Source of the DNA: Fimbriimonas sp.
GTDB lineage: Bacteria; Armatimonadota; Fimbriimonadia; Fimbriimonadales; Fimbriimonadaceae
Reading direction: 5' to 3'
Assembly: GCA_031292555.1 (NCBI GenBank)
Contig: JARLGV010000051.1
Coordinates: 1 to 64,000, forward strand
Length of the DNA: 64,000 nucleotides
In this document: piece after piece, positions 44,155 to 61,148 of the stretch
Layout of the letters: the number at the start of each line of letters is the position of its first letter
How positions within the stretch are numbered: the stretch's first letter is position 1
The notes under the pieces: model-generated
Database searches by the model: none
Told to the model about the DNA's origin: nothing
The model's input: the letters and a program-made list of their open reading frames with translations, nothing else
Translations under genes and position numbers: made by a program

Positions 44155-47100
44155 ATGATTGCACTAGCCGTACTTGTGTTTGGATTTCAGAAAACGGGCC
44201 CCGTGGACTTTGGGGCGGCGGCGATTCGGGAGACGGCGGGGGATCGAGCGGGCAACGTGTCGATCTCGGTGCGGCCCGGTAAGACGAAGGAGTCGTACAC
44301 GATCACCAGCAAGGACGGCAAAGTTTCGATCGTCGGCACCGATCCTGCGGGGGCGATGTATGGTGCGTTCGAATTTGCCGAGCGTTTGCACCAGCAGGGA
44401 GACTCTGCCTGGGCTTCGAACGTCGAAGGAAAGCCCTTCCTGCCGGATCGCGGACTGAATCTGTTCACAACCCTCCCATGGAGCTACACCAAGAACAACA
44501 CGGATTACGATGTCGCAGCACTGACTGACTCGTCTCGGTGGTGGTTCCAGAACGACGACTACTGGACCACGTTGCTCGATACCATGGCCCACAGCCGCTT
44601 GAATTGGCTAGATATCCACGGAATGTGGGACGTCAGCGTCACGAGCGCGCCTAACCTCTATGCCTACTTCGTCACGAGCCCCTCATTTCCAAAGGTCGGC
44701 GTTCCCTCTGAGGTGAAGGCGGCTAATCTGGCACGTCTCAACAAGGTCGTCGAAATGGCACACGAACGCGGCATCCGCGTTAGCTTAATGGCATACGATG
44801 CGGACCTGAACATCCCTCAGAACCCGAATCCGCCCTATCCTCAAACGGAACCGAACATCTACAAGTACACACGCGAAGCGGTGGAGCAGATGATTCGTGG
44901 GGTTCCCCGCCTCGACGCCATCGGCTTCCGAATCGGTGAAAGCGGAAAGAGCGAATCGTTCTTCAAGTGCTATGGCGAAGCCGTCAAGCTGAGCGGACGG
45001 CACATCCCGCTGATCACGCGCAGTTGGGTCACTCGGCGCCAGCGCGTGCTGCCCTTGGCCCGAGACTCCAAGGATTTCACCGTCGAGATAAAGTACAACG
45101 GCGAGCAGTGGGGCGCCCCGTATCCGGTTGCGGGCGGACGCATGGCGACCTGGAACAGCTACTCATTCGAAGACTATCTCAGCGATGCGGGAGACGCCCG
45201 AAAGAACGCAAAGACCTGGGCTGGATGGCCGGCAGAGGGCGGGGGAACGTGGCCGGGCAATCCGTACAAAGTTGTTTGGCAGGTCCGCGCGAACGGTACC
45301 CATCGAATCTTCCCGTTCTACAACCCCGATTGGGTGCGCCGATCGATCGCCGCGATGAAGATCGGGACTGCATCGGGCTACACGATCGAGGGCGAGGACG
45401 CTTACTATCCAAAATCGCCGCTCTATTACCTGTCCAACCCTCAAGATCAGTATTGCGACTGGATTCACCAGCGAGACGAGCTCTACTGGATGACATGGGG
45501 TCGCCTCGGCTATGACCCGAAAACGCCGGACTCAGTTTTCGATGCCAAGGTCACCGATTGGTTCGGCGCACAGGGCTCCATGGTCGCCAAGGTATGGAAG
45601 GAAGCCAGCACGGTGGTACCGCTCGCCTATATGGCTCGCTCGATCGGCCCCGACCACCGGGACCACGCCCCTGAACTCGAAACGGGAGGCGATACCCAAT
45701 CCTTCATCGAAGGGCAGCCATTCGATCCGTTCGTGTTCCGCGATGTGATGGAGACGGTGGGTATGAAGGCGATGGGCGTTACCGACGGCCGTATCGGAGT
45801 GGATCAGGTCGGGGCAAGGCTTGGCCAGATCTCGGCCGATATCCGGCAAGCGACCCCGTCGGTAGACGAGGCCACGCTCAACCCTCTTGGTCGGAAGCGG
45901 TTTCACGAGCTAAAGGCTGCCCTCGGCATGCTCTCGGCACTTGCCGAATACTACTGCGGGCGGTTCCTCTCGGCTGAGTCCCTGGCCGAAGCAAACTTGG
46001 AGGGGCGATTCGAGCCGATTCCGCTTATCGGACGTTCTTGGGGCTTGCCGTTAAGTAGGCTCGACCCTTGGTCAGTGCGCTCGGATACTTCTGGCGCAGC
46101 CCTTTTTCACGGTGTCGCCCAAGGCTGGAGCATTCTTTCCGATTCTTCGGTGGCGGATTTCTATCGCCCCTTCACCGAGCGACTTCGAATGCACACCAAC
46201 ACTTTCGCATGGAAGTCGGAGCTGCCGTCGATCGTAAAGGAGAACCTCCAAGCGCTTGGGGCTTCGATCAAGAACATCGCATTTCCTGCCGCCCCAACGG
46301 CGGCCTCCAACGTGGAACTGACCTGGACGCGAAGAACTGACACCATCAACATATCGTTGCCAGCCCAAGGCGCCACCAAGGCATGGCTTCTCTACAAGCC
46401 GCTTCCAAGCTCGACCTTCTTCCACAAACTCCCGATGCAGAGGCAAGGAAACGAATTCGTCACGACAATTCCCGACGAGCGTTGGGGCGCATGCATCGCG
46501 GCCGAGATCGAGAATCCGTCCGGCAAGGTACGGGTCCCAAGTTTTGAAGCGGGATTCAAGCCTTACATCGTCGTTCCCGCCCATTCAGGACCAACCGCCC
46601 AAATCTACGGATGCGAGGAGGCGATGACGTTCCTCGATCCGAAGGACTTGTCGCCTGACAAGTACGGAACGCTGATCGTTGCCCCGCGCGCAAGCGACTA
46701 CTTCCGCGAATTCGACAGAACGACGCGACGCAAACTGCTCGATCCGGTTGCCCGGGGCATGACACTGCTTGTACTCCAGCAGGACTTTGTCTCCCGTCGA
46801 TACAATCTCGACTTTCTGCCGAGGCCACTTCAAGTCGAGAATAATCCCAAGCCGGATGAGTTCGATCCAGGTGACATGCTGGGGCTCTCGCCGATCTACA
46901 CGCCGGGAATTACGTGGCAGCATTTTCTTCCGAGCGACGGTTGGGATGTGCCTGGCAATGGCGGCATCGCCCATATGGCGTTCGGAAAGGGCCATATATA
47001 CGTACTGACCGGACGCTTCATGCAATTAATGGACAAAAAAGGAGTAGCCAAAGACCTCCAGAAGCTGCTGGAACTTAACGGACGCTCGCAGCCGGCGGTT

Positions 47101-48999
47101 ATTGTCGACCCGGGTACGGAGGGCGCGCTCTATTCGTCCGCGTTCTATCCGGACATCTTGAACGCCTTGGACATCCCGTTCCTAACGCTTGGCGAGGTCG
47201 TCGCAAAGGAACAGGGACCGAACGATCTCACACCGATACCAGGACCGATTATGGATGACGATGTATTAGGCGGCAAAGCCCGCGAGTTGGCGGACGCGTT
47301 CCTCAAGGGCCGCGTCGAGAAGATGTCGGCGGTACCGACCCCGGCCCTTTCCGAATTCGAGAAGCTCCGGGTTAGCCGGAAGAAGGAGCTCTTCCGAGCT
47401 CTTGGCCTCGACCCGATGCCCCCCAAGACCCCCCTCAATGCTCGAAAGACCGGTGAGCTTCACGGCAACGGGTTCCACATCGAGAAGGTGGTCTTCGAGA
47501 GCCGACCCAAGTTCTATGTGACCGCCCACGTTTATCTACCCGACAACAAGCCGGCTCAGAGATTGCCGGTGATCGTCAATGTGAACGGTCACTGGGCACA
47601 CAAAAAGGATGAGGACCGGATTCAGATGCGATGCCAGTTCCAGGCTCTCCAGGGCTATATTGCGATCGCAATAGACAGCCCCGGTCATAGCTTCGAGGGG
47701 AACAACCTCATCGAGCGCCGGCCCGAGGGCGAACACAACGACTACGCCCTCGTCGAAGGCGGCACCAATACGACCGGTTACTACGTGTGGGACGCGATTC
47801 GCTGCCTCGACTACATGGCGACCCGCGACGACACCGACATGGAGCACATCGGCATCACCGGCGCGTCGGGCGGAGGGTTGGCGACGCTCTACACCTTCGC
47901 GGCAGACGATCGCTACAAGGCTGCGGTACCCGTTGTGTACATGTCCAGCCTCGAATTGGCTCCTGATAACGGGTGCCTCTGCAACCACGTTCCGGGAACC
48001 TGCCAGATCGGCGATCGGTCCGATGTAATTGGCATTCAGGCCCCGAAGCCGGTCTACATCATGGGAGCCCAGAATGACGGCGAATTCACTCCCGCCGGCA
48101 TGCTCCTGACCCACAAGAAGATGGAGGAGACGTGGAACCTCTTCGGCAGAGGCAAGGACACCTATGTTCAGGTCTATGCCGGAGGTCACGACTATAGCAA
48201 GCCCATGAGGGAGTCGATGATCGGCTTCTTCAACAAGTACTTGAGGGGCGTCGGCGATGGTTCGCCAGTTCCGGAGCCGCCCCTCAAGGTTTGGGATTCC
48301 GAAGACCGGCAGCTCCTCGTTCTGGATCCGCCGATCCCTGGCGAGCGTACTATGCGCGATCTCTCCAGGGAGTATCTGGACCACGCACCCGCCAACGTTT
48401 CGGTTGCCGACGTCTTCAAGGTGAATGGAGGTCTTCCCGCGAAGTCGGACCTCAAATACCGCGAAATCGGCTCCGGCCGGAAGCGGGCGGTCGTCTTCGA
48501 GCCACAACCGGGCCTGCAAATCCCTGGGGTGCTCTGCCTACCGGATGGCAAGGTCGATGCGATCAATATCGTTCTGGTGGATGCCGGAAAGGCGGAAGGC
48601 GAGAAGATCTCGCCGCCGACCGGCAACGAGGGCTATCTCTATCTGGATGCCCTTGGGATCGGCGAGTTGGCCGAGATCGAGATGCGGTATTCGGTGTACA
48701 TGGGGGCGTCGGTGCCCTTCCTGAACGGATGGGAAATCGTCCGGGCAGCGGAAGCTATGAAGAAGTACTCCGGCCACATCAAGTTACTCGGGTGCGGGCC
48801 AATCTCCTCCCAGTCGGTCATGTTTGCCGGCCTGATGGATTCGTCCTTCGAGAGCGTTGCCGGCCAAGGGTGTCTTCACCAGTGGAAGGACGTATTCAAC
48901 GACGGAGTTTCCGACTACGCAATACAGCCGCGAGCCCACCTCTGCGGGACGCTGGAGCATCTGCGGTCGCTGGTTAAGAACGCAAAGTGGAGTTTCTGA
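44155..48999 (+). CDS. 1614-residue multidomain enzyme: glycosidase-like plus alpha/beta-hydrolase
   Basis: A very large single chain. Residues about 20-100 resemble the N-terminal domain of GH67/GH20-type enzymes (SYTITSKDGKVSIVGTD, GAMYGAFEFAERL). About 100-700 look like a TIM barrel and helical extension (LPDRGLNLFTT, NWLDIHGMWD, AIGFRIGESGK, GYTIEGEDAYY). About 705-1060 contain beta-sandwich and Rossmann-like parts of uncertain family. About 1065-1400 form an acetyl-xylan-esterase-like alpha/beta-hydrolase with GASGGG (Ser1238), Asp1308 in GAQNDGEFTP and His1345 in GGHDYSK. About 1410-1614 repeat the hydrolase style without a clear nucleophile. GAGGAAG precedes the ATG. The N-terminus is short and hydrophobic, and export is uncertain. 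It is probably a glucuronoxylan-type debranching enzyme, which is inference. Confidence 0.8.
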   Translation: MIALAVLVFGFQKTGPVDFGAAAIRETAGDRAGNVSISVRPGKTKESYTITSKDGKVSIVGTDPAGAMYGAFEFAERLHQQGDSAWASNVEGKPFLPDRGLNLFTTLPWSYTKNNTDYDVAALTDSSRWWFQNDDYWTTLLDTMAHSRLNWLDIHGMWDVSVTSAPNLYAYFVTSPSFPKVGVPSEVKAANLARLNKVVEMAHERGIRVSLMAYDADLNIPQNPNPPYPQTEPNIYKYTREAVEQMIRGVPRLDAIGFRIGESGKSESFFKCYGEAVKLSGRHIPLITRSWVTRRQRVLPLARDSKDFTVEIKYNGEQWGAPYPVAGGRMATWNSYSFEDYLSDAGDARKNAKTWAGWPAEGGGTWPGNPYKVVWQVRANGTHRIFPFYNPDWVRRSIAAMKIGTASGYTIEGEDAYYPKSPLYYLSNPQDQYCDWIHQRDELYWMTWGRLGYDPKTPDSVFDAKVTDWFGAQGSMVAKVWKEASTVVPLAYMARSIGPDHRDHAPELETGGDTQSFIEGQPFDPFVFRDVMETVGMKAMGVTDGRIGVDQVGARLGQISADIRQATPSVDEATLNPLGRKRFHELKAALGMLSALAEYYCGRFLSAESLAEANLEGRFEPIPLIGRSWGLPLSRLDPWSVRSDTSGAALFHGVAQGWSILSDSSVADFYRPFTERLRMHTNTFAWKSELPSIVKENLQALGASIKNIAFPAAPTAASNVELTWTRRTDTINISLPAQGATKAWLLYKPLPSSTFFHKLPMQRQGNEFVTTIPDERWGACIAAEIENPSGKVRVPSFEAGFKPYIVVPAHSGPTAQIYGCEEAMTFLDPKDLSPDKYGTLIVAPRASDYFREFDRTTRRKLLDPVARGMTLLVLQQDFVSRRYNLDFLPRPLQVENNPKPDEFDPGDMLGLSPIYTPGITWQHFLPSDGWDVPGNGGIAHMAFGKGHIYVLTGRFMQLMDKKGVAKDLQKLLELNGRSQPAVIVDPGTEGALYSSAFYPDILNALDIPFLTLGEVVAKEQGPNDLTPIPGPIMDDDVLGGKARELADAFLKGRVEKMSAVPTPALSEFEKLRVSRKKELFRALGLDPMPPKTPLNARKTGELHGNGFHIEKVVFESRPKFYVTAHVYLPDNKPAQRLPVIVNVNGHWAHKKDEDRIQMRCQFQALQGYIAIAIDSPGHSFEGNNLIERRPEGEHNDYALVEGGTNTTGYYVWDAIRCLDYMATRDDTDMEHIGITGASGGGLATLYTFAADDRYKAAVPVVYMSSLELAPDNGCLCNHVPGTCQIGDRSDVIGIQAPKPVYIMGAQNDGEFTPAGMLLTHKKMEETWNLFGRGKDTYVQVYAGGHDYSKPMRESMIGFFNKYLRGVGDGSPVPEPPLKVWDSEDRQLLVLDPPIPGERTMRDLSREYLDHAPANVSVADVFKVNGGLPAKSDLKYREIGSGRKRAVVFEPQPGLQIPGVLCLPDGKVDAINIVLVDAGKAEGEKISPPTGNEGYLYLDALGIGELAEIEMRYSVYMGASVPFLNGWEIVRAAEAMKKYSGHIKLLGCGPISSQSVMFAGLMDSSFESVAGQGCLHQWKDVFNDGVSDYAIQPRAHLCGTLEHLRSLVKNAKWSF

Positions 49000-49021
49000 A
49001 CCGAATCCAGCATTCGGTTCA
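48997..49021. terminator. hairpin carrying the stop codons of two convergent genes
   Basis: TGAACCGAAT (48997-49006) and ATTCGGTTCA (49012-49021) pair around a five-base loop. The left arm starts with the TGA of the plus-strand gene and the right arm ends with the TGA (as TCA) of the minus-strand kinase. Confidence 0.7.
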
Positions 49022-50152
49022 TGCCTTCACGTAAACGCCGCCCTGGAGATGCCAATCCGATGGCATCTTCAGGGGACGATTCGACCACCCATTCCGAATC
49101 CTGGAATCGGTAGCCGGCCACGATTGAACGCCAGTCACCGCATCGGCTTGCTCGCAACAGCAACCACCAACGGCGGCCGCCGCACGCAAAGCGTCCTCTG
49201 GCCGCATTCCTCGTATCCACCCCATTAGCAGCCCGGCGATCGTCGCATCTCCGGCTCCGGTCGTGCCCTTTACATCCACCTCGAATACAGGCGCCCACAT
49301 GTGGCAGCTTTGCCACGGCATAGGGTCGGCGGGCGCGCCGCGGCCCAGGCCGTCCAGTTCGTCTCGTGAGCGTAGGTAGAGCCCCAGCGATCCTGCCTTG
49401 ACGGCAATGACCTTGGCCCCAAGCGAGATCGCTTCCATGGAAAGCCGCTCGAATTCGCTGACTGGAACCGGCTCGCCCTTCAGCGTTTCGAACCTTGACC
49501 GATCCAACATGAACACCAACTCCTCCGCGCTTGGAAGGAACAGGTCGGTGTACGGAAGAACGCGCGTGAGAATCTTGCGCCAGTCGGCCTTTCCGGCTGC
49601 TCCGGCCAAATCGGGGAGGCTCACATCCAGCGAAGTGGTTGCCCCAAGCCGTTTGGCGCGTTCGAACAAACTCAGCGTCTCGCGCCCATCGTCCTCGAAC
49701 ATCCGCGCCATCAAAGTCGGATAGCCGAAGTGGACAAGATCGGCATCGAGAATCGCTTGATCGGTTACGTCTGAGGCGACGAACGTATTGTTGCAGCCGG
49801 GAGCATGGAGGAACATTCGGTCTTCGCCAGAGAGGTTGATGACCACCGTGTACGACGTGGCATCGGTCGGCGAGACCGTCATTCCCCGGCTTAGCCCGCT
49901 TCCGCAGCGCTCCAAGGTGTCGCATACCGCCTTCCCAAACAGATCGTCGCCGATCTTGCCGGCGAGCGCAGTCTTGATGCCGAGCTTGTGAAGCGCCTGA
50001 CCCGTGTTGGAGACCACGCCTCCCGTGCTGATCAGGGCGTCACCCACTTCGAACAGGCGTCCCGGATCGAATGTCACCTTTCCCAAGAAGCCCGGAATGA
50101 TATCCAGGCAAATATGTCCGGCAACCAGCACGTCATTGAGGGCTTTCGGCAT
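49019..50152 (-). CDS. PfkB-family sugar kinase
   Basis: A 377-residue ribokinase-fold kinase. The N-terminal motif is DVLVAGHICLDIIPG, followed by STGGVVSNTGQALHKLG and GKIGDDLFGK, the sugar-binding entry of PfkB proteins. The catalytic block is KGTTGAGDATIAGLLMGWIRG with the base Asp in GAGD. The family includes ribokinase, fructokinase and 2-keto-3-deoxygluconate kinase; the substrate cannot be assigned here. A C-terminal tail of about 30 residues is longer than usual and ends in GGVYVKA. A TAAACT box ten bases before the ATG suggests a very short leader. It is cytoplasmic. Confidence 0.9.
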   Translation of the reverse strand: MPKALNDVLVAGHICLDIIPGFLGKVTFDPGRLFEVGDALISTGGVVSNTGQALHKLGIKTALAGKIGDDLFGKAVCDTLERCGSGLSRGMTVSPTDATSYTVVINLSGEDRMFLHAPGCNNTFVASDVTDQAILDADLVHFGYPTLMARMFEDDGRETLSLFERAKRLGATTSLDVSLPDLAGAAGKADWRKILTRVLPYTDLFLPSAEELVFMLDRSRFETLKGEPVPVSEFERLSMEAISLGAKVIAVKAGSLGLYLRSRDELDGLGRGAPADPMPWQSCHMWAPVFEVDVKGTTGAGDATIAGLLMGWIRGMRPEDALRAAAAVGGCCCEQADAVTGVQSWPATDSRIRNGWSNRPLKMPSDWHLQGGVYVKA

Positions 50153-50226: not shown

Positions 50227-52335
50227 TTACAAACCAAGGATCTTCTGGATGAGCGCCTTTTGGGCGTGGAGGCGATTCTCCGCTTGGTCGACGACCTTAC
50301 TTTGGGGGCCGTCGATGACTTCGGTGGTGACCTCGAAACCGCGCCGGGCGGGCAGGCAGTGAAGAAAGATCGCGTCCTTCTCGGCGATGCTCATAAGGCG
50401 TCCATTTACCTGGTACGGCTCGAAAACTTTAAGCCGGTGCTCCTGCTCATGCTCGTCTCCCATCGAGACCCAAACGTCGGTATAGACCACCTGCGCGCCG
50501 TCCAAGCCCTCTTCGATGTCGGTTGTCTGGGTTAGCCCTTCCATCGGCTCCAAGCGGAAATTCTCAGGCCCGCAGATCGTCACCGGATACCCGATACGAG
50601 TAGCAAGTTTCGCAAGTGAACGGGCGACGTTGTTGCCGTCGCCGATATAGGCGATCTTCACTTTGTCCTGGCCGAAGTTCTCCTGAATCGTCTGCATATC
50701 GGCCAGCGCCTGGCATGGGTGTTCCCACTCTGTGAGCGCGTTGATAACGGGCACGTTAGCCTCTTCGGCGAGTTCGACAAGGTGCTTCTGCCAGTAGAGG
50801 CGGGCCACGATGAGATTGCACCAACGCGACAGGTTCTGGGCGACATCTGCAACCGAGTCCCGTGCCCCCATCGCAATGTCGCCTTTGCCGAGATAGACCG
50901 GATGGCCCCCCAACTCGACGATCGCGGTCTCGAACGAAACGCGCGTACGCAGCGACTGCTTCTCGAACACCATCGCGACGGTCCGGTTCTCGACTGGATT
51001 GATCACCGACGGCGCAATCCTTCGCCGCTGCTTGCTGTAGACCGCAAGGTCGATCACTTCTTCGATCTGAGCCGTCGAAAGGTCGTCGATCGACAATACG
51101 TCGTGGAGTGGTTTGACAAGCGCTTTCGCGCGAACGCCTGACCGCGGGATCATCGGGGCAGGGACACTCATTGCCTCGGCAAGGATTCCCAGCGCATGCA
51201 CAATCTGATCCTCAGTGACGATTAGGGGCGGAACGAATCGCAGAGTGTAGTCGTCGGTCGCGTTGATGATCAGCTTCTTCTCGAAGCATTTCTTGACGAG
51301 GTCCTTGGCAATCGGCTTGTCTAGAGCGGCGCCAATCATCAGTCCCTTGCCGGTGACCGTCAGGCCCATCGCGGCAAGGCCGGTGGCAAGAAGGTTGCCA
51401 ATATGGGTGACGTGCTCAAGCAGGTCCTGGTGCTCGATCGTGTCGATAACGGCAAGCGCGGTCGCACAGGCAAGTGGGCTGCCTCCGAAGGTTGAACCGT
51501 GGTCTCCCGGCTCCAAGATCTCAGCAGCTCTTCCGCATGCGAGCGTCGCTCCGATGGGCACCCCGCCACCAAGGGCCTTGGCAAGCACGAGCACGTCCGG
51601 CTTGATTCCATAGTGCTGGTATGTGAACCACTTGCCGCTTCGGCCCATTCCGCACTGGACCTCGTCGAACATCAGAAGGGCGTTGTGTTCTTGACACAAT
51701 CGCTGGGCCTCTCGCAAGTAGTCCTCGGTCAGTTCAAGGATGCCCCCCTCGCCCATGATCGGCTCCAGCAGGATCGCCGCCGTGCTATGGGAGAACGCTT
51801 CCCGAAGCTCTTCAAGGTTGTTGGCCTCGACATGAACGAAGCCAGGAACGATCGGCTTGAACGGCCGCTGGTACTTCAGTTGTCCGGTGGCCGATAGCGC
51901 ACCGAGGGAGCGACCGTGAAAAGACCGGTTCAGGGTAATGATTTGATAGTCGCCATCTGGCCGCTTGGAGTTACCGTGCTTCTTCGCGATCTTGATCGCG
52001 CACTCGTTTGCGGTGGCGCCGCATCCGCACAGGAAGACGCGGTCCATGCCGCTGATTTCGCAAAGCCGCTTGGCCAATTGGGCCTGTGGAGCGGTAAGTA
52101 GGAGGTTGGAAGTATGAATCAGCTGTTGGGCTTGACGGGTGATCGCCGCGACCACCGCCGGGTGGCAGTGCCCAAGTTGGCAAACTGCGATTCCCGCAAG
52201 GAGGTCCAAATATTCGTTCCCTCGGTTGTCCCAGAGGCTGCAGCCGGAGCCTTGGACGAAAAGCGCGGGCATCCGCGTGTATGTCCGCATGAGGAATTCG
52301 TCATCCGTCGATTTAATCGTGTCGTATTTGAGCAT
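50227..52335 (-). CDS. argDF: ArgD-ArgF fusion: acetylornithine aminotransferase and ornithine carbamoyltransferase
   Basis: A 702-residue single chain joining two arginine-biosynthesis enzymes. Residues 1-391 are an acetylornithine aminotransferase: CGATANECAIKIAK, SFHGRSLGALSATG, LLMFDEVQCGMGRSG and Lys253 in VLAKALGGGVPIGA for PLP. After a short linker, about 404-702 are an ornithine carbamoyltransferase: FEKQSLRTRVSFE (carbamoyl-phosphate loop 461-465), EWEHPCQALADM, IGDGNNVARSL, TDVWVSMGDE and HCLPARRG (659-666). The frame is continuous with no stop or start at the junction. It would catalyse steps 4 and 6 of the pathway; the deacetylation step between them is not encoded here. ATG 52335 is chosen because it gives a normal ArgD N-terminus; the frame upstream is unrelated. 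A structured leader precedes it. Confidence 0.93.
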   Translation of the reverse strand: MLKYDTIKSTDDEFLMRTYTRMPALFVQGSGCSLWDNRGNEYLDLLAGIAVCQLGHCHPAVVAAITRQAQQLIHTSNLLLTAPQAQLAKRLCEISGMDRVFLCGCGATANECAIKIAKKHGNSKRPDGDYQIITLNRSFHGRSLGALSATGQLKYQRPFKPIVPGFVHVEANNLEELREAFSHSTAAILLEPIMGEGGILELTEDYLREAQRLCQEHNALLMFDEVQCGMGRSGKWFTYQHYGIKPDVLVLAKALGGGVPIGATLACGRAAEILEPGDHGSTFGGSPLACATALAVIDTIEHQDLLEHVTHIGNLLATGLAAMGLTVTGKGLMIGAALDKPIAKDLVKKCFEKKLIINATDDYTLRFVPPLIVTEDQIVHALGILAEAMSVPAPMIPRSGVRAKALVKPLHDVLSIDDLSTAQIEEVIDLAVYSKQRRRIAPSVINPVENRTVAMVFEKQSLRTRVSFETAIVELGGHPVYLGKGDIAMGARDSVADVAQNLSRWCNLIVARLYWQKHLVELAEEANVPVINALTEWEHPCQALADMQTIQENFGQDKVKIAYIGDGNNVARSLAKLATRIGYPVTICGPENFRLEPMEGLTQTTDIEEGLDGAQVVYTDVWVSMGDEHEQEHRLKVFEPYQVNGRLMSIAEKDAIFLHCLPARRGFEVTTEVIDGPQSKVVDQAENRLHAQKALIQKILGL

Positions 52336-52716
52336 CTTTGTTGTTGAACTTTTCGCAAATGACGCGCACCTTTGCGCGCTTGGATGAGCGAGAAATAAGG
52401 GGAGGCGGGTTGCGACGTCGCAAGCTGGCAGAGGGCCGACTCCCCTAAATACGAGAGGCACGACGGCGCGTCTCACGCGAAACCAGCGTGATCGTGTTGA
52501 TTCCCAAGGTGCGGGAGGCGCCCAACATCTCGTTTACATTACCCCAACTTCACATTGGTACAGGAAGTCCTTGCATGTACGACCGACCAAGACTATAATG
52601 CCAGTGCAGTTTGAACCTGCAACCTATTTTGGGTATTGAGGGTATAACCCCCTAAGCGCTGGTTCAATCGGCGCAATAACGCTCCCAACAGGGGCGGTCC
52701 GTCAGGAGGTGTTTGT
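52336..52716. other. structured divergent region between argDF and a small lipoprotein gene
   Basis: This 381-base region holds, toward argDF, a perfect 14-bp palindrome TTGCGACGTCGCAA (52410-52423) nested between GGGGAG (52399-52404) and CTCCCC (52440-52445), so the argDF leader can fold into a branched structure. TAATGT on the minus strand near 52545 may be its -10. The right part carries the lipoprotein promoter and a leader of about 110 bases. I see no gene. Confidence 0.5.
52571..52599 (+). promoter_or_regulatory. near-consensus sigma-70 promoter of the small lipoprotein gene
   Basis: TTGCAT (52571-52576) and TATAAT (52594-52599) are separated by exactly 17 bases. Confidence 0.75.
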
Positions 52717-53484: not shown

Positions 53485-54417
53485 TCAACCCTTGTAGTTG
53501 CCGTGGAGAATCGTATTTTCGATATCTCCATCAATCGATACGGGTCCGCCGATGATTGAGTGGCGGATGTTTCCGGAAACTTTTACGTGAGCGCCGGGCA
53601 GAATCACCGAATCTTCGATCGACCCGCACTCCAGCCGGGCCCCTTCGCCGATTGCGACGTTGTTCGAGAGGTCTCCTACGGCTGTAGCAGTCGGCGCCAC
53701 CAGAACTCCGCCGTGAAGATAGAAAGCGGACGTCTCAAGGTAGAAATCGAGAGTTCCGGTATCGAACCATCGATCCTTGAAGATCCCGGCGAGAACGGGC
53801 AAACCTCGGTCGACCAGAATCTGAATCGCATCGGTGATCTCATATTCGCCACGAAAGCTCGGTTTCAGCTCAGGCAGGACGCTCCAGAGTTCAGGGCCAA
53901 AGAAATACAAGCCCGCCATGCACAAATTGCTTTCCGGCACCTTCGGCTTCTCCACAAGCTTGACAATTCGATCCCCTTCGACGTTGGCCACTCCGAAGTG
54001 AGTCGGGTCAGGCATCTCCTTGACGACGCTCAGATTTGCGCAACCTGACTCCTTGAACCGGGCGGCGAACTTCTGGAAACCGCCGCTGTAGATCGCGTCA
54101 CCCAAATATAAAACGAACGAATCGTCTCCCACGAAATCGCGAGCGAATCCGACGGCATGAGCCAGACCGTGCGGTTCGATCTGTCGGACGTAAGTGAGGT
54201 TTACGTCGAACGACGCGCCGTCGCCGAGTGCCCGACGCATCTGCTCTTCGGTCTCGCCGATCACGATACAGATGTCATGGACGTCCATCTCCTTCAAGCG
54301 GTCGAAGGCGTACTCGAGCGTCGTTCGGTTCGCGATGGGAAGGAGTGGCTTTGGAATCAGCTTCGTTACTGGATTCAGACGAGTGCCTCGACCCGCCGCT
54401 AGAATGACGCCTTTCAT
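53485..54417 (-). CDS. NDP-sugar pyrophosphorylase (glucose-1-phosphate thymidylyltransferase-like)
   Basis: A 310-residue nucleotidyltransferase. The signature MKGVILAAGRGTRLNP with IPKPLLPI binds the nucleotide. YLGDAIYSGG carries a metal-binding Asp, EKPKVPESN is the sugar loop, and RWFDTGTLDFYLETS is typical of RmlA/StrD-type enzymes. The last 60 residues form left-handed beta-helix-like hexapeptides (VGDLSNNVAIGEGARLECGSI), as in the long-form thymidylyltransferases. It would make an activated sugar such as dTDP-glucose for cell-surface glycans. ATG 54417 is chosen for the family start; no ribosome-binding site is evident. It is followed at once by the coiled-coil lipoprotein gene. Confidence 0.9.
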   Translation of the reverse strand: MKGVILAAGRGTRLNPVTKLIPKPLLPIANRTTLEYAFDRLKEMDVHDICIVIGETEEQMRRALGDGASFDVNLTYVRQIEPHGLAHAVGFARDFVGDDSFVLYLGDAIYSGGFQKFAARFKESGCANLSVVKEMPDPTHFGVANVEGDRIVKLVEKPKVPESNLCMAGLYFFGPELWSVLPELKPSFRGEYEITDAIQILVDRGLPVLAGIFKDRWFDTGTLDFYLETSAFYLHGGVLVAPTATAVGDLSNNVAIGEGARLECGSIEDSVILPGAHVKVSGNIRHSIIGGPVSIDGDIENTILHGNYKG

Positions 54418-54742
54418 GGAACTTTGCGGGATTGAATTCGACAACTGAACCCAAACCCGCCCCCGATGATACTCCGTGCCGATTCTCTTTGTGGGGACAT
54501 CGCTCATCAAGCTTTCGGCTCATCGGAGAATAATCCAACGCAGAAACTTGCTTATCACTATCTTTTAGTCCTTTTCTTATAGATATCCGATGAGATACTT
54601 CGTCCTCGCCCTGCTTTGGGCCAATTTCGCGAATTCGGGGTCATTCTGATTTCACTCAGCGACGTTCACGGTATTGGGCAATGGCCGAATCCGATGGATA
54701 CTATAGATTAGGTTAAGAACGGGACGGGTAACCTATACTTCT
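54418..54742. other. divergent intergenic region
   Basis: This 325-base gap between the pyrophosphorylase and a lipoprotein gene includes a frame at 54590-54649 encoding 19 hydrophobic-leaning residues (MRYFVLALLW...), which looks like an isolated signal peptide, perhaps a relic. TATACT (54734-54739) lies three bases before the lipoprotein ATG. I see no other gene. Confidence 0.45.
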
Positions 54743-55972
54743 ATGGCGGACGGTCGAGTGCATCCATACCTATGCGGCTCCATCGTCGCAGTTTGCCTGC
54801 TCGGGGGGTGTCATTCCAACCTCGAACTCATGGATTCCTTCGGCCCGCGCGAGATCATTCCCTATACTCCTCGAGCCAACAGTCAAAACGCATTCGACGC
54901 ATACGCCCTCGCCGCGCTTGATGCCGAGAAGCTAGCGGGACCGTACGTGTCCCGTGTGTCCTTCTTCCCCGATCAGAAAACCGAGATCATCAAGGCGCTT
55001 CGACCTTGCGTCAGACAGGTCTCGGAGGCTACCAGGCTCGACTGCGAGTTTCGATTCGTTCCCCATAGGCCGTTCACCCAGATCCCCTACCAGAACGGTT
55101 GGCGGTTCATCGGACGGGTATACGAATGGAACGCCGACCGGGCTTGTACGACAGGCGACTACGACACCGCAATTGCCAACGTGACGGTGGGCACGAAATT
55201 CGGCTTTGACTTGACGGCAGGAGGGGCAACCGACGCTTCGCTCGGCCTATCCATCGTCGACGAATTGCGACGCTCGATCGCGCCCTATCTCGCGAAAATG
55301 TCTCCCTCCCAACTCGACCGGTTGGCAAGGGGAATCAAGGACGATGTGCAGCGTGAGCCTTCCATCGCCACGGCCATAAAGAACGAGCACGAGAATATTC
55401 TCCAGTCGCTGCGCTTTGTCGAAGAGTGCATGACAAAAAACAACTATGATGCGCTGCTGGACAACATGGGGCCGGACGTCAACGAGGCGATTCGATTCCT
55501 CAGCGAGATCGGAGGCAACGAACGCAAACAGCAGACGTTCCTGACCGAACTGACGCAGGCCTGCGAATCTGAGTACGCGACCGTCCAGCAGGATGCGAAT
55601 GTGCCCACTATCAAGCGCCCCCAAACCAAAATCGAATTCAAAAAGCAGTGGAGGAAACTGCCCAAGTATCTTCTCGGATCGCTCCGACCGCTACTGAGTA
55701 TGAGTGACGCAACATGCGCCCGAACACGTCTCCTCTTGCTCTACGCGGAGATCCTCAAATTCGGCAAGGAGCAGAAGCCCTTTCCGTCCGGATTAAGCGT
55801 CTTTTCAAACGACCTAACGATCGATCCGTTCACTGGAAAGCCGTTTCTCTATCATGCGGACCAAGCCGAGTTCACGCTCTACAGCGTGGGGGCCAACTGC
55901 CGGGATGATGGTGGAGATACCGACGAAACCTACTCCACTCCAGACCTAAAGCTGGAGTGTCCGGGTCCGTAA
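54743..55972 (+). CDS. lipoprotein of unknown function
   Basis: A 409-residue exported protein. The signal ends in the lipobox CLLGGC. The mature part is mostly helical with several Cys residues. At the C-terminus, DPFTGKPFLYHADQAEFTLYSVGANCRDDGGDTD closely follows the pattern found at the end of type II secretion pseudopilin-like domains (VGxxxxDDGG), suggesting a shared fold or calcium-binding loop, although no prepilin N-terminus is present (split motif given by parts; position about 345-385). The ATG lies three bases after TATACT, too close for a normal leader, so either the promoter is elsewhere (TATAG at about 54704) or translation is leaderless. Neighbours give no clue. Confidence 0.75.
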   Translation: MADGRVHPYLCGSIVAVCLLGGCHSNLELMDSFGPREIIPYTPRANSQNAFDAYALAALDAEKLAGPYVSRVSFFPDQKTEIIKALRPCVRQVSEATRLDCEFRFVPHRPFTQIPYQNGWRFIGRVYEWNADRACTTGDYDTAIANVTVGTKFGFDLTAGGATDASLGLSIVDELRRSIAPYLAKMSPSQLDRLARGIKDDVQREPSIATAIKNEHENILQSLRFVEECMTKNNYDALLDNMGPDVNEAIRFLSEIGGNERKQQTFLTELTQACESEYATVQQDANVPTIKRPQTKIEFKKQWRKLPKYLLGSLRPLLSMSDATCARTRLLLLYAEILKFGKEQKPFPSGLSVFSNDLTIDPFTGKPFLYHADQAEFTLYSVGANCRDDGGDTDETYSTPDLKLECPGP

Positions 55973-58982: not shown

Positions 58983-61148
58983 ATGGAGACGGTTCTTCGG
59001 TTCTTGGCTGCCGGGTTGTACCTGGGCGTTATCGCGCCAACGCAAAGCCCTGGCAATGCCCGGCCCGTAACGATCACTATTCAGGCTTCGGCCGTATCCA
59101 AGGCGCTCAAGCAGTTGGGAGCCTTGATCGGGACTCCGCTCTCGCCGTCGCGCCGACTGTCCGACGAGATCATCTCAATGCGATTTCAAGACGTACCTGT
59201 TGCCGACGCGATGAAGCGGGTCGCCGACGTGCTCGATGCAACTTGGCAGAAGGAGGGTTCCGGCTATCGGCTTGTCCGAACCCCCGAACAGGACAAGGCA
59301 GAGGAACGCATCGAATTCGAAGCGAGGGTCGAGAGGTTTCGAAAGGGGATTCAGGCAACGTCGAAGCGAGTCAGTTCCATGTCATCTTGGTCCACCGATC
59401 AAGCCGACCAGCTCTCGGTAAAGGTTGAGGCGCTGCTGAACGGCCAAAGCCATGCATCCACTCCGAACTATCGGCTGGCGAACCAGCTCACACGCCAGCT
59501 GCCGATCGCCCGCGCCGTACAGGAAATCGTCGCCCACCTCGATCCAAACAATCTGGCTGCGCTGCCACCGTATATCGATACTGTTTGGTCGTCGCGTCCG
59601 ACACCCATACAGACCGAGATGCCTTCGAGTACCGGACCGATTTTTGAAGAGTATCAACGTGAGCAAGCCGACTGGGTCAATGCACTTCGCCGGAGGCGCC
59701 TACCGACGAACACGAGCGAACTGCAAGCCCTCTTGGGATCGGATTTCAGTGTAGCGCAGGGCATCGCCGACCAAAAGGTGGACGTTATCCTGCTTAAGGC
59801 GCACTCTTCATCGCCGAACTCGTTTATGACAGTCACTATGTCTGCCTTCAATGCCTCCGGCAAGAGGCTCGGACAGGCAGAATGCACGTTCGGGGGCGAC
59901 TATGACGCAGGCTTTGCCTCCGCGATGAGGACATCCCAGCCTTCACCGCCTGGCGAAAAGAAGATCGAGCTTGAGGGCGACGGGAAGATCCTTATGGAAT
60001 CTCAAATGCCGGCTAACCGAGCATCAGGACGCTCCTTACCGACCGACCTCATCGCCAAGATCGCTCACCCGGATCGATCCGATCCGCTCAGTCTCATGAT
60101 GTCCCCGCCACTCGTTCAGGCGGCTGAGGCCAAGCAGTTGAACCTAATCGCTTGCCTGGCCGACCAGAACTTCTATTCTGCTGCCGGCACCCGAGCCAGC
60201 CTTTCTGTCAGCGATTTCCTGTTGCGGTCGGCATACCCCGCGACCTCGATCGAAACACGGGACGGTTGGATTACGGTGAGACCGAACCGTCCAGTGGAGG
60301 CCCGCGAGGCTCGGGCCGATCGAAGGGTTCTGGGGCAGTACCTGCGCCGTCTCCTCGAAAAGAGACGGCTATCGATCGAGGATCGAGCCGCCTACTCCCT
60401 TTTGCTGCCGGCCCCGGATTCGAACAGCATGCCGGCGTACTTGGCGAGGTTTCTCAGGATTCCGGCAACCAATTTCGACGACGACATCAATGTGCTTCGA
60501 TTCTACGGACTGCTTACGGCCCAGCAGCGATCGAGACTGATGGCGGACAGACTGCCCATCGGATCGCTACGGCCCGACCAAGCGGAGTACGTCAGGCGAA
60601 TGGTCTATGGCTCTGACGGCAGTCTCGAGTATCGTGCTTCCCAGACTGTCGGCAGCGAGGAACAGGAGTTGCACACCACCGGCATCTTGAGCGAAGCCAC
60701 CGAATCGTTGCCGACCGGACTTCCCGTGGATGGTTCCGTCAGCGCAAAAGCCGATGACTCGTTCGTCGCATTCAGAACCGACGAACCGTCGGGCACGTCC
60801 GGCGATTCGACAAACGAACTTGCGGCAACGGACTTGGCATGGAGAGTGTTCGTTCAAGATCACCCCCTGCTGTTTCCTAGGGCAAGTAGCCTTTCCCCAA
60901 GGATCGAGTTGGCAAAGCTCAAATTTGCGAGGCGCCTTCAGATGACGTTCACGTTCCAATTCACCCCGCGCCTGTTCCTGATCAAGACGCTGGAAGACAG
61001 CAGTGCGGAGGATTTCCTCAAGTCCGCGCAATCGACCATGCCGGAGGACTTCAAGAAGCAACTGGATCGCGAATACGAGTCATTGACTAGAGCATACGCG
61101 GGGGCGAAACCGGGACAAGGCGTTGAACCCGTTCACCCGCCGCCCTAG
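58983..61148 (+). CDS. secreted protein with an STN-like N-terminal domain
   Basis: A 721-residue protein. After a short signal (FLAAGLYLGVIAPTQS) it has an STN/secretin-short-domain-like fold: VTITIQASAVSKALKQLGAL and MRFQDVPVADAMKRVADVL, the alpha/beta arrangement used in TonB receptors and secretins. A coiled region follows, then a long part with no recognised family (PPYIDTVWSSRPTP; VDVILLKAHS; MLSAF-like MSAFNASGKRL). It starts at ATG 58983 with AAGGA just upstream. The gene at 62999 is a paralogue over its N-terminal 330 residues. It is probably a lineage-specific envelope protein. Confidence 0.75.
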   Translation: METVLRFLAAGLYLGVIAPTQSPGNARPVTITIQASAVSKALKQLGALIGTPLSPSRRLSDEIISMRFQDVPVADAMKRVADVLDATWQKEGSGYRLVRTPEQDKAEERIEFEARVERFRKGIQATSKRVSSMSSWSTDQADQLSVKVEALLNGQSHASTPNYRLANQLTRQLPIARAVQEIVAHLDPNNLAALPPYIDTVWSSRPTPIQTEMPSSTGPIFEEYQREQADWVNALRRRRLPTNTSELQALLGSDFSVAQGIADQKVDVILLKAHSSSPNSFMTVTMSAFNASGKRLGQAECTFGGDYDAGFASAMRTSQPSPPGEKKIELEGDGKILMESQMPANRASGRSLPTDLIAKIAHPDRSDPLSLMMSPPLVQAAEAKQLNLIACLADQNFYSAAGTRASLSVSDFLLRSAYPATSIETRDGWITVRPNRPVEAREARADRRVLGQYLRRLLEKRRLSIEDRAAYSLLLPAPDSNSMPAYLARFLRIPATNFDDDINVLRFYGLLTAQQRSRLMADRLPIGSLRPDQAEYVRRMVYGSDGSLEYRASQTVGSEEQELHTTGILSEATESLPTGLPVDGSVSAKADDSFVAFRTDEPSGTSGDSTNELAATDLAWRVFVQDHPLLFPRASSLSPRIELAKLKFARRLQMTFTFQFTPRLFLIKTLEDSSAEDFLKSAQSTMPEDFKKQLDREYESLTRAYAGAKPGQGVEPVHPPP

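Follow-up and report, generated by a model that had tools for sequence, protein, structure and literature searches.

The window analysed here, a stretch of 64,000 nucleotides from a genome of Fimbriimonas sp., carries on its minus strand an argD-argF fusion gene at positions 50227 to 52335. The frame runs from an ATG at 52335 to a stop codon at 50229-50227 and encodes 702 amino acids (76.8 kDa) with zero internal stops, which confirms the one continuous frame of 702 codons that had been read from the letters alone. The plus-strand reading of the same coordinates was ruled out, as stops occur within its frame. Upstream of the ATG the frame remains open as far as a GTG at 52476; the start is probably at 52335, a placement supported by the conserved N-terminal sequence MLKYDTIK and by two relatives in which the frame opens exactly at this point. 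Scans for sigma-70-like promoters and Shine-Dalgarno sequences gave matches not above chance level. An open frame of such length, conserved across dozens of species, cannot be due to chance.

On the same strand, 75 bp downstream of the fusion, lies a gene for a PfkB-family sugar kinase (49019 to 50152), which is a neighbour only in the closest relatives and is probably unrelated to the function of the fusion. Upstream, also on the minus strand, a nucleotidyltransferase gene (53485 to 54510) is a conserved neighbour across much of the family and serves as a synteny marker; its position upstream of many fusions, even the most divergent, indicates vertical descent. Three plus-strand genes of the window were also noted: one encoding a 409-residue protein with no Pfam match (54743 to 55972) and conserved near the fusion in many of the genomes that have it; one encoding a 721-residue protein, also with no Pfam match (58983 to 61148); and one encoding a 1614-residue protein (44155 to 48999), for which the sole Pfam match is a weak one to esterase/peptidase S9 around residues 1109-1261, the greater part of the protein being unassigned.

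The fusion protein contains three Pfam domains, with E-values of 1e-42 to 1e-109, and no full Pfam match beyond the aminotransferase and OTC domains was obtained. The ArgD half comprises residues 1-388 (52335 down to 51172), with the Aminotran_3 match (PF00202) extending over residues 18-388, and scores 458.6 bits against the NCBIfam ArgD model TIGR00707, for which the curated cut-off is 410.05. The PLP-binding lysine, K253, lies in the sequence LAKALGGG and is kept in all 28 fused proteins compared. Furthermore, the top fold match of the predicted structure is the ArgD of T. maritima (2ord), at 48% identity and 1.5 A rmsd. Judged by the cut-off, the PLP lysine and the modelled class III aminotransferase fold, this half is predicted to be a complete acetylornithine aminotransferase.

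The ornithine carbamoyltransferase (OTC) half comprises residues 409-702 (51111 down to 50230) and matches OTCace_N (PF02729) over residues 412-552 and OTCace (PF00185) over residues 558-696; its score against TIGR00658 is 330.9 bits, above the curated cut-off of 280.85. The carbamoyl-phosphate motifs SxRTR (SLRTR, 461-465) and HPxQ (HPCQ, 539-542), as well as the ornithine motifs DxxxSMG (DVWVSMG, 620-626) and HCLP (659-662), are the same at their fixed positions in 28/28 fused proteins, with variation confined to positions such as C541 (25/28) and V623 (17/28). The curated cut-off and the ornithine motifs together mark this half as a putative complete ornithine carbamoyltransferase. The claim that all ArgD and OTC motifs are intact thus stands, the motif residues being unchanged or nearly so throughout the fused proteins.

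Between the two halves is a linker, residues 389-408 (51171 down to 51112), which differs freely in sequence and length among the 28 fused proteins, while the active-site motifs are fixed. It contains two in-frame ATG codons, Met389 (51171) and Met395 (51153), so the sequence-only reading was not literally correct in stating that there is no internal start, although these codons are not conserved (10/28 and 2/28 fused proteins, respectively). The AlphaFold model consists of two confident domains with a pTM of 0.60, and pLDDT falls below 50 only at residues 399-408, which are predicted to be disordered; from these values the relative placement of the two domains is not fixed. Among the 60 solved-structure matches shown, none was a chain spanning both halves. 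In nine of nine pairwise comparisons, nonsynonymous divergence was far lower than synonymous divergence in both halves. This low nonsynonymous change, together with the strong constraint on the motifs, argues that both halves are maintained by selection, as would be expected for working enzymes.

The fused architecture recurs in other genomes. In a survey of 70 Fimbriimonadaceae genomes, each at least 90% complete, the fused frame was found in 25, with relatives at 59-84% identity and no internal stop in any. Most of the genomes with the fusion are metagenome assemblies, but the fusion is also present in the finished chromosome of Fimbriimonas ginsengisoli Gsoil 348 (G008), a single contig of 5,231,762 bp in agreement with the published size (PMC4072686), and in two further genomes that are each a single contig (G079 and G080). 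All 24 of the best-matching named contigs (L040-L063), which are labelled Armatimonadota or unnamed bacterium and are drawn in part from these same genomes, carry both halves in one frame. In a lower-quality metagenome assembly, G009 (L023), whose sequence appears to be that of L068, the OTC half contains a single in-frame TAG, which could be either a sequencing error or a sign of gene decay.

In the arginine pathway ArgD carries out step 4 and OTC step 6, and ArgJ, the enzyme of step 5, therefore acts between them. That a single chain joins ArgD to ArgF with the intervening step absent is borne out by homology, by the motifs and by the 25 conserved cases in the family. The missing step would be supplied from elsewhere in the source genome, where ArgJ is encoded by a single-copy gene on contig C123 that overlaps and directly follows a gene reading as argC, an assignment made by sequence inspection; ArgH is encoded on contig C132. 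Also, no separate argF is present: the only other carbamoyltransferase is PyrB-like, with a pyrC-like gene following it, and the fusion is therefore the only OTC of the genome.

Across the family, ArgJ is present in 25/25 fusion genomes and in 1/45 non-fusion genomes, the exception being G016, a fragmented assembly that is 94% complete. As ArgJ is a separate gene in every one of these fusion genomes, the earlier caution that direct hand-off of product would not be simple holds. A match to N-acetylornithine carbamoyltransferase (NF003384) above the 288-bit cut-off was found in 31 of the 45 non-fusion genomes and never alongside the fusion or ArgJ, and the source genome has no match to it at E 1e-60. 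The associations among the fusion, ArgJ and this enzyme gave Fisher p values of 4e-18 and 3e-9, which ignore shared ancestry, and the counts may rest on few evolutionary events. Thirteen of the 70 genomes lack the fusion, ArgJ and NF003384, and five of these (G023, G035, G061, G063 and G067) have a stand-alone OTC.

Two side observations concern enzymes of this pathway. Many Fimbriimonadaceae genomes without ArgJ, even within the genus of the window, probably use an N-acetylornithine carbamoyltransferase (acetylcitrulline) route (L118-L130; 31 genomes), whose carbamoyltransferase gene often adjoins an argD-like gene. The ArgJ of F. ginsengisoli (G008:C1:2278602-2279792) matched in two pieces within one frame of 487 codons, which suggests that roughly 28 extra residues are inserted midway along the protein.

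Phylogenetic analysis grouped the OTC halves of the fusions with the stand-alone OTC from G023 in one clade (support 100/99), with the G023 sequence nested within the fused clade in both OTC trees. The G023 gene lies at the syntenic position of the fusion, following the nucleotidyltransferase gene and the neighbour u409, and has no ArgD remnant; the genome is without ArgJ. The simplest reading is that the ArgD half was lost here after the ArgJ route had been lost. In the sister family f2, ArgJ is present with argD and argF separate and unlinked, so the ArgJ route does not require the fusion. In five genomes from other families of the phylum (G101, G102, G134, G143 and G183), argD and argF are neighbours that share a frame and are parted only by a stop and a short spacer, as would be expected of a stage before fusion; same-frame adjacency is over-represented in this count, because the protein search joins only same-frame pairs.

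A second ArgD-OTC fusion was found in family f10, in G107 (L180) and G242 (L169), which are 92% identical and have an open frame of 737 codons uninterrupted by any stop. In the trees both halves fall among f10 sequences that are unfused (OTC, 99/100; ArgD, 92/94) and outside the clade of the first fusion, and the second fusion thus has an independent origin. Long open frames in G104 and G241 were considered as a three-part fusion and rejected, as the frames proved to be separate and the OTC to be extended at its N-terminus. Such an extension, of about 160 residues, was seen on f10 OTCs in G103 (L176), G104 (L174), G241 (L175), G108 (L177), G110 (L178) and G111 (L181), and that of G103 includes a match to Clp_N (PF02861, E 1.6e-15). 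Clp_N is the N-terminal domain of Clp chaperones; this unexpected pairing might connect OTC with protein quality control.

We consider it highly likely that the fusion is a bifunctional ArgD-OTC enzyme catalysing the steps before and after that of ArgJ, and the sole OTC of the species that use the ArgJ route, with equal dosage and closeness of two enzymes common to the ornithine branch as the most likely benefit. The ArgD half would make N-acetylornithine, the separately encoded ArgJ would convert this to ornithine with return of the acetyl group to glutamate, and the OTC half would then make citrulline. The gene would have arisen among the ancestors of the Fimbriimonadaceae when argD was joined to argF, probably because the stop codon separating two same-frame neighbours was lost, and would since have been kept as the only OTC in species on the ArgJ route. 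Equal dosage and closeness are favoured as the benefit because the halves appear to fold independently on a flexible tether; a sealed tunnel is unlikely, since ArgJ must act in between, and physical channelling or a complex with ArgJ is possible. Since ArgD is active as a dimer and OTC as a trimer, we infer that the minimal closed complex would be hexameric, at about 460 kDa, with two OTC trimers bridged by three ArgD dimers, a layout resembling that of aspartate carbamoyltransferase.

As to benefit, a serious rival is that the join was neutral: two same-frame neighbours would have lost the stop that parted them, with both enzymes still functional and no gain conferred. This differs from the bifunctional reading only on the matter of benefit, and we regard it as possible. 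The five same-frame argD-argF pairs in other families, over-represented as such pairs are by the search, indicate that one mutation could suffice to join the genes. However, the fusion has been kept in some 25 species despite turnover of the linker, with no re-splitting into two genes in high-quality genomes, and a second fusion arose independently, in the two f10 species.

Alternatively, ArgJ might dock between the two halves, so that the fusion would be the scaffold of a three-enzyme complex channelling both N-acetylornithine and ornithine. The strict co-occurrence with ArgJ, the persistence of the OTC half alone at the corresponding locus of G023, which lacks ArgJ, and the two origins within the phylum would all fit such a complex. 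Nevertheless we think it unlikely, as the linker is short and variable with no conserved docking motif, argJ is located apart from the fusion gene in the source genome, and the co-occurrence is expected in any case because the ArgJ route needs both enzymes. A more doubtful elaboration still is that a fusion scaffold of D3 symmetry recruits free ArgJ between its halves, with enzymes one and three of the series covalently joined and the middle one exchangeable; the convergence of two families would then reflect selection for this geometry.

It is very improbable that the gene yields two proteins, through internal initiation or through proteolysis in the linker. The source species does have two ATG codons there and the linker is predicted to be disordered, but the codons are not conserved and the scan listed no Shine-Dalgarno-like match at them. 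Direct use of N-acetylornithine by the OTC half, which would make the chain one of consecutive steps, is scarcely credible: some family members do have an N-acetylornithine carbamoyltransferase, often encoded beside an argD-like gene, but the fused half exceeds the OTC cut-off and has the OTC ornithine motifs, NF003384 matches relatives and not the source genome at the threshold given above, and ArgJ accompanies every high-quality fusion genome. Finally, an assembly or frameshift artefact, which the prevalence of metagenome assemblies among the carriers and the TAG in one of them might have suggested, has a probability of virtually nil, being already refuted by the identical architecture in independent assemblies, namely the finished type-strain chromosome and the single-contig G079 and G080.

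The bifunctional ArgD-OTC enzyme proposed here bears on how fusions are understood, since the usual explanation of an enzyme fusion is that one step hands its product to the next, whereas here the step of another enzyme intervenes. A fusion that has lasted through a bacterial family and has arisen twice offers a test of whether dosage or closeness is by itself enough to keep enzymes fused. The Fimbriimonadaceae, little-studied bacteria of soil and freshwater in which the fusion is old and occurs in more than two dozen species, provide a comparative set around a cultured type strain, with members that have the fusion, members that have the acetylcitrulline route and members that have shed the ArgD half. 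For annotation, best-hit naming is predicted to miss one of the two activities of the fusion.

Two-enzyme fusions in the arginine pathway are already known, and the ArgD-OTC pairing is apparently undescribed, though the architecture may be listed in domain databases such as InterPro or in subscription papers; the literature search, which covered open-access papers, yielded no description of it. The N-acetylglutamate synthase-kinase of Xanthomonas carries two arginine-pathway activities on one chain (PMC1865377), but these are different enzymes and act in consecutive steps, whereas ArgD and OTC have the ArgJ step between them. ArgH(A) of marine gammaproteobacteria is reported as another fusion with two arginine-pathway activities on one chain (PMC1382215), formed from enzymes other than ArgD and OTC. 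The domain composition of neither protein was seen in the Pfam matches of our fusion. Loci in Zoogloea, Verrucomicrobiota, Lentisphaerota and Rhodospirillales (L064-L117), which were distant matches over both halves, encode the same two enzymes in the same order at roughly 36-50% identity per half; unlike the fusion, they are neighbouring separate genes with a stop between, and were rejected as fusions. The N-acetylornithine carbamoyltransferase route of sister species resembles the fusion in its pairing, with an argD-like gene often beside the carbamoyltransferase gene, and differs in that the substrate is acetylated, so that the two steps are consecutive, and in that the genes are unfused and ArgJ is absent. 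The closest likeness in architecture is the f10 fusion, a protein of 721 aa with the same domain order and no stop, whose origin is separate from that of the Fimbriimonadaceae fusion.
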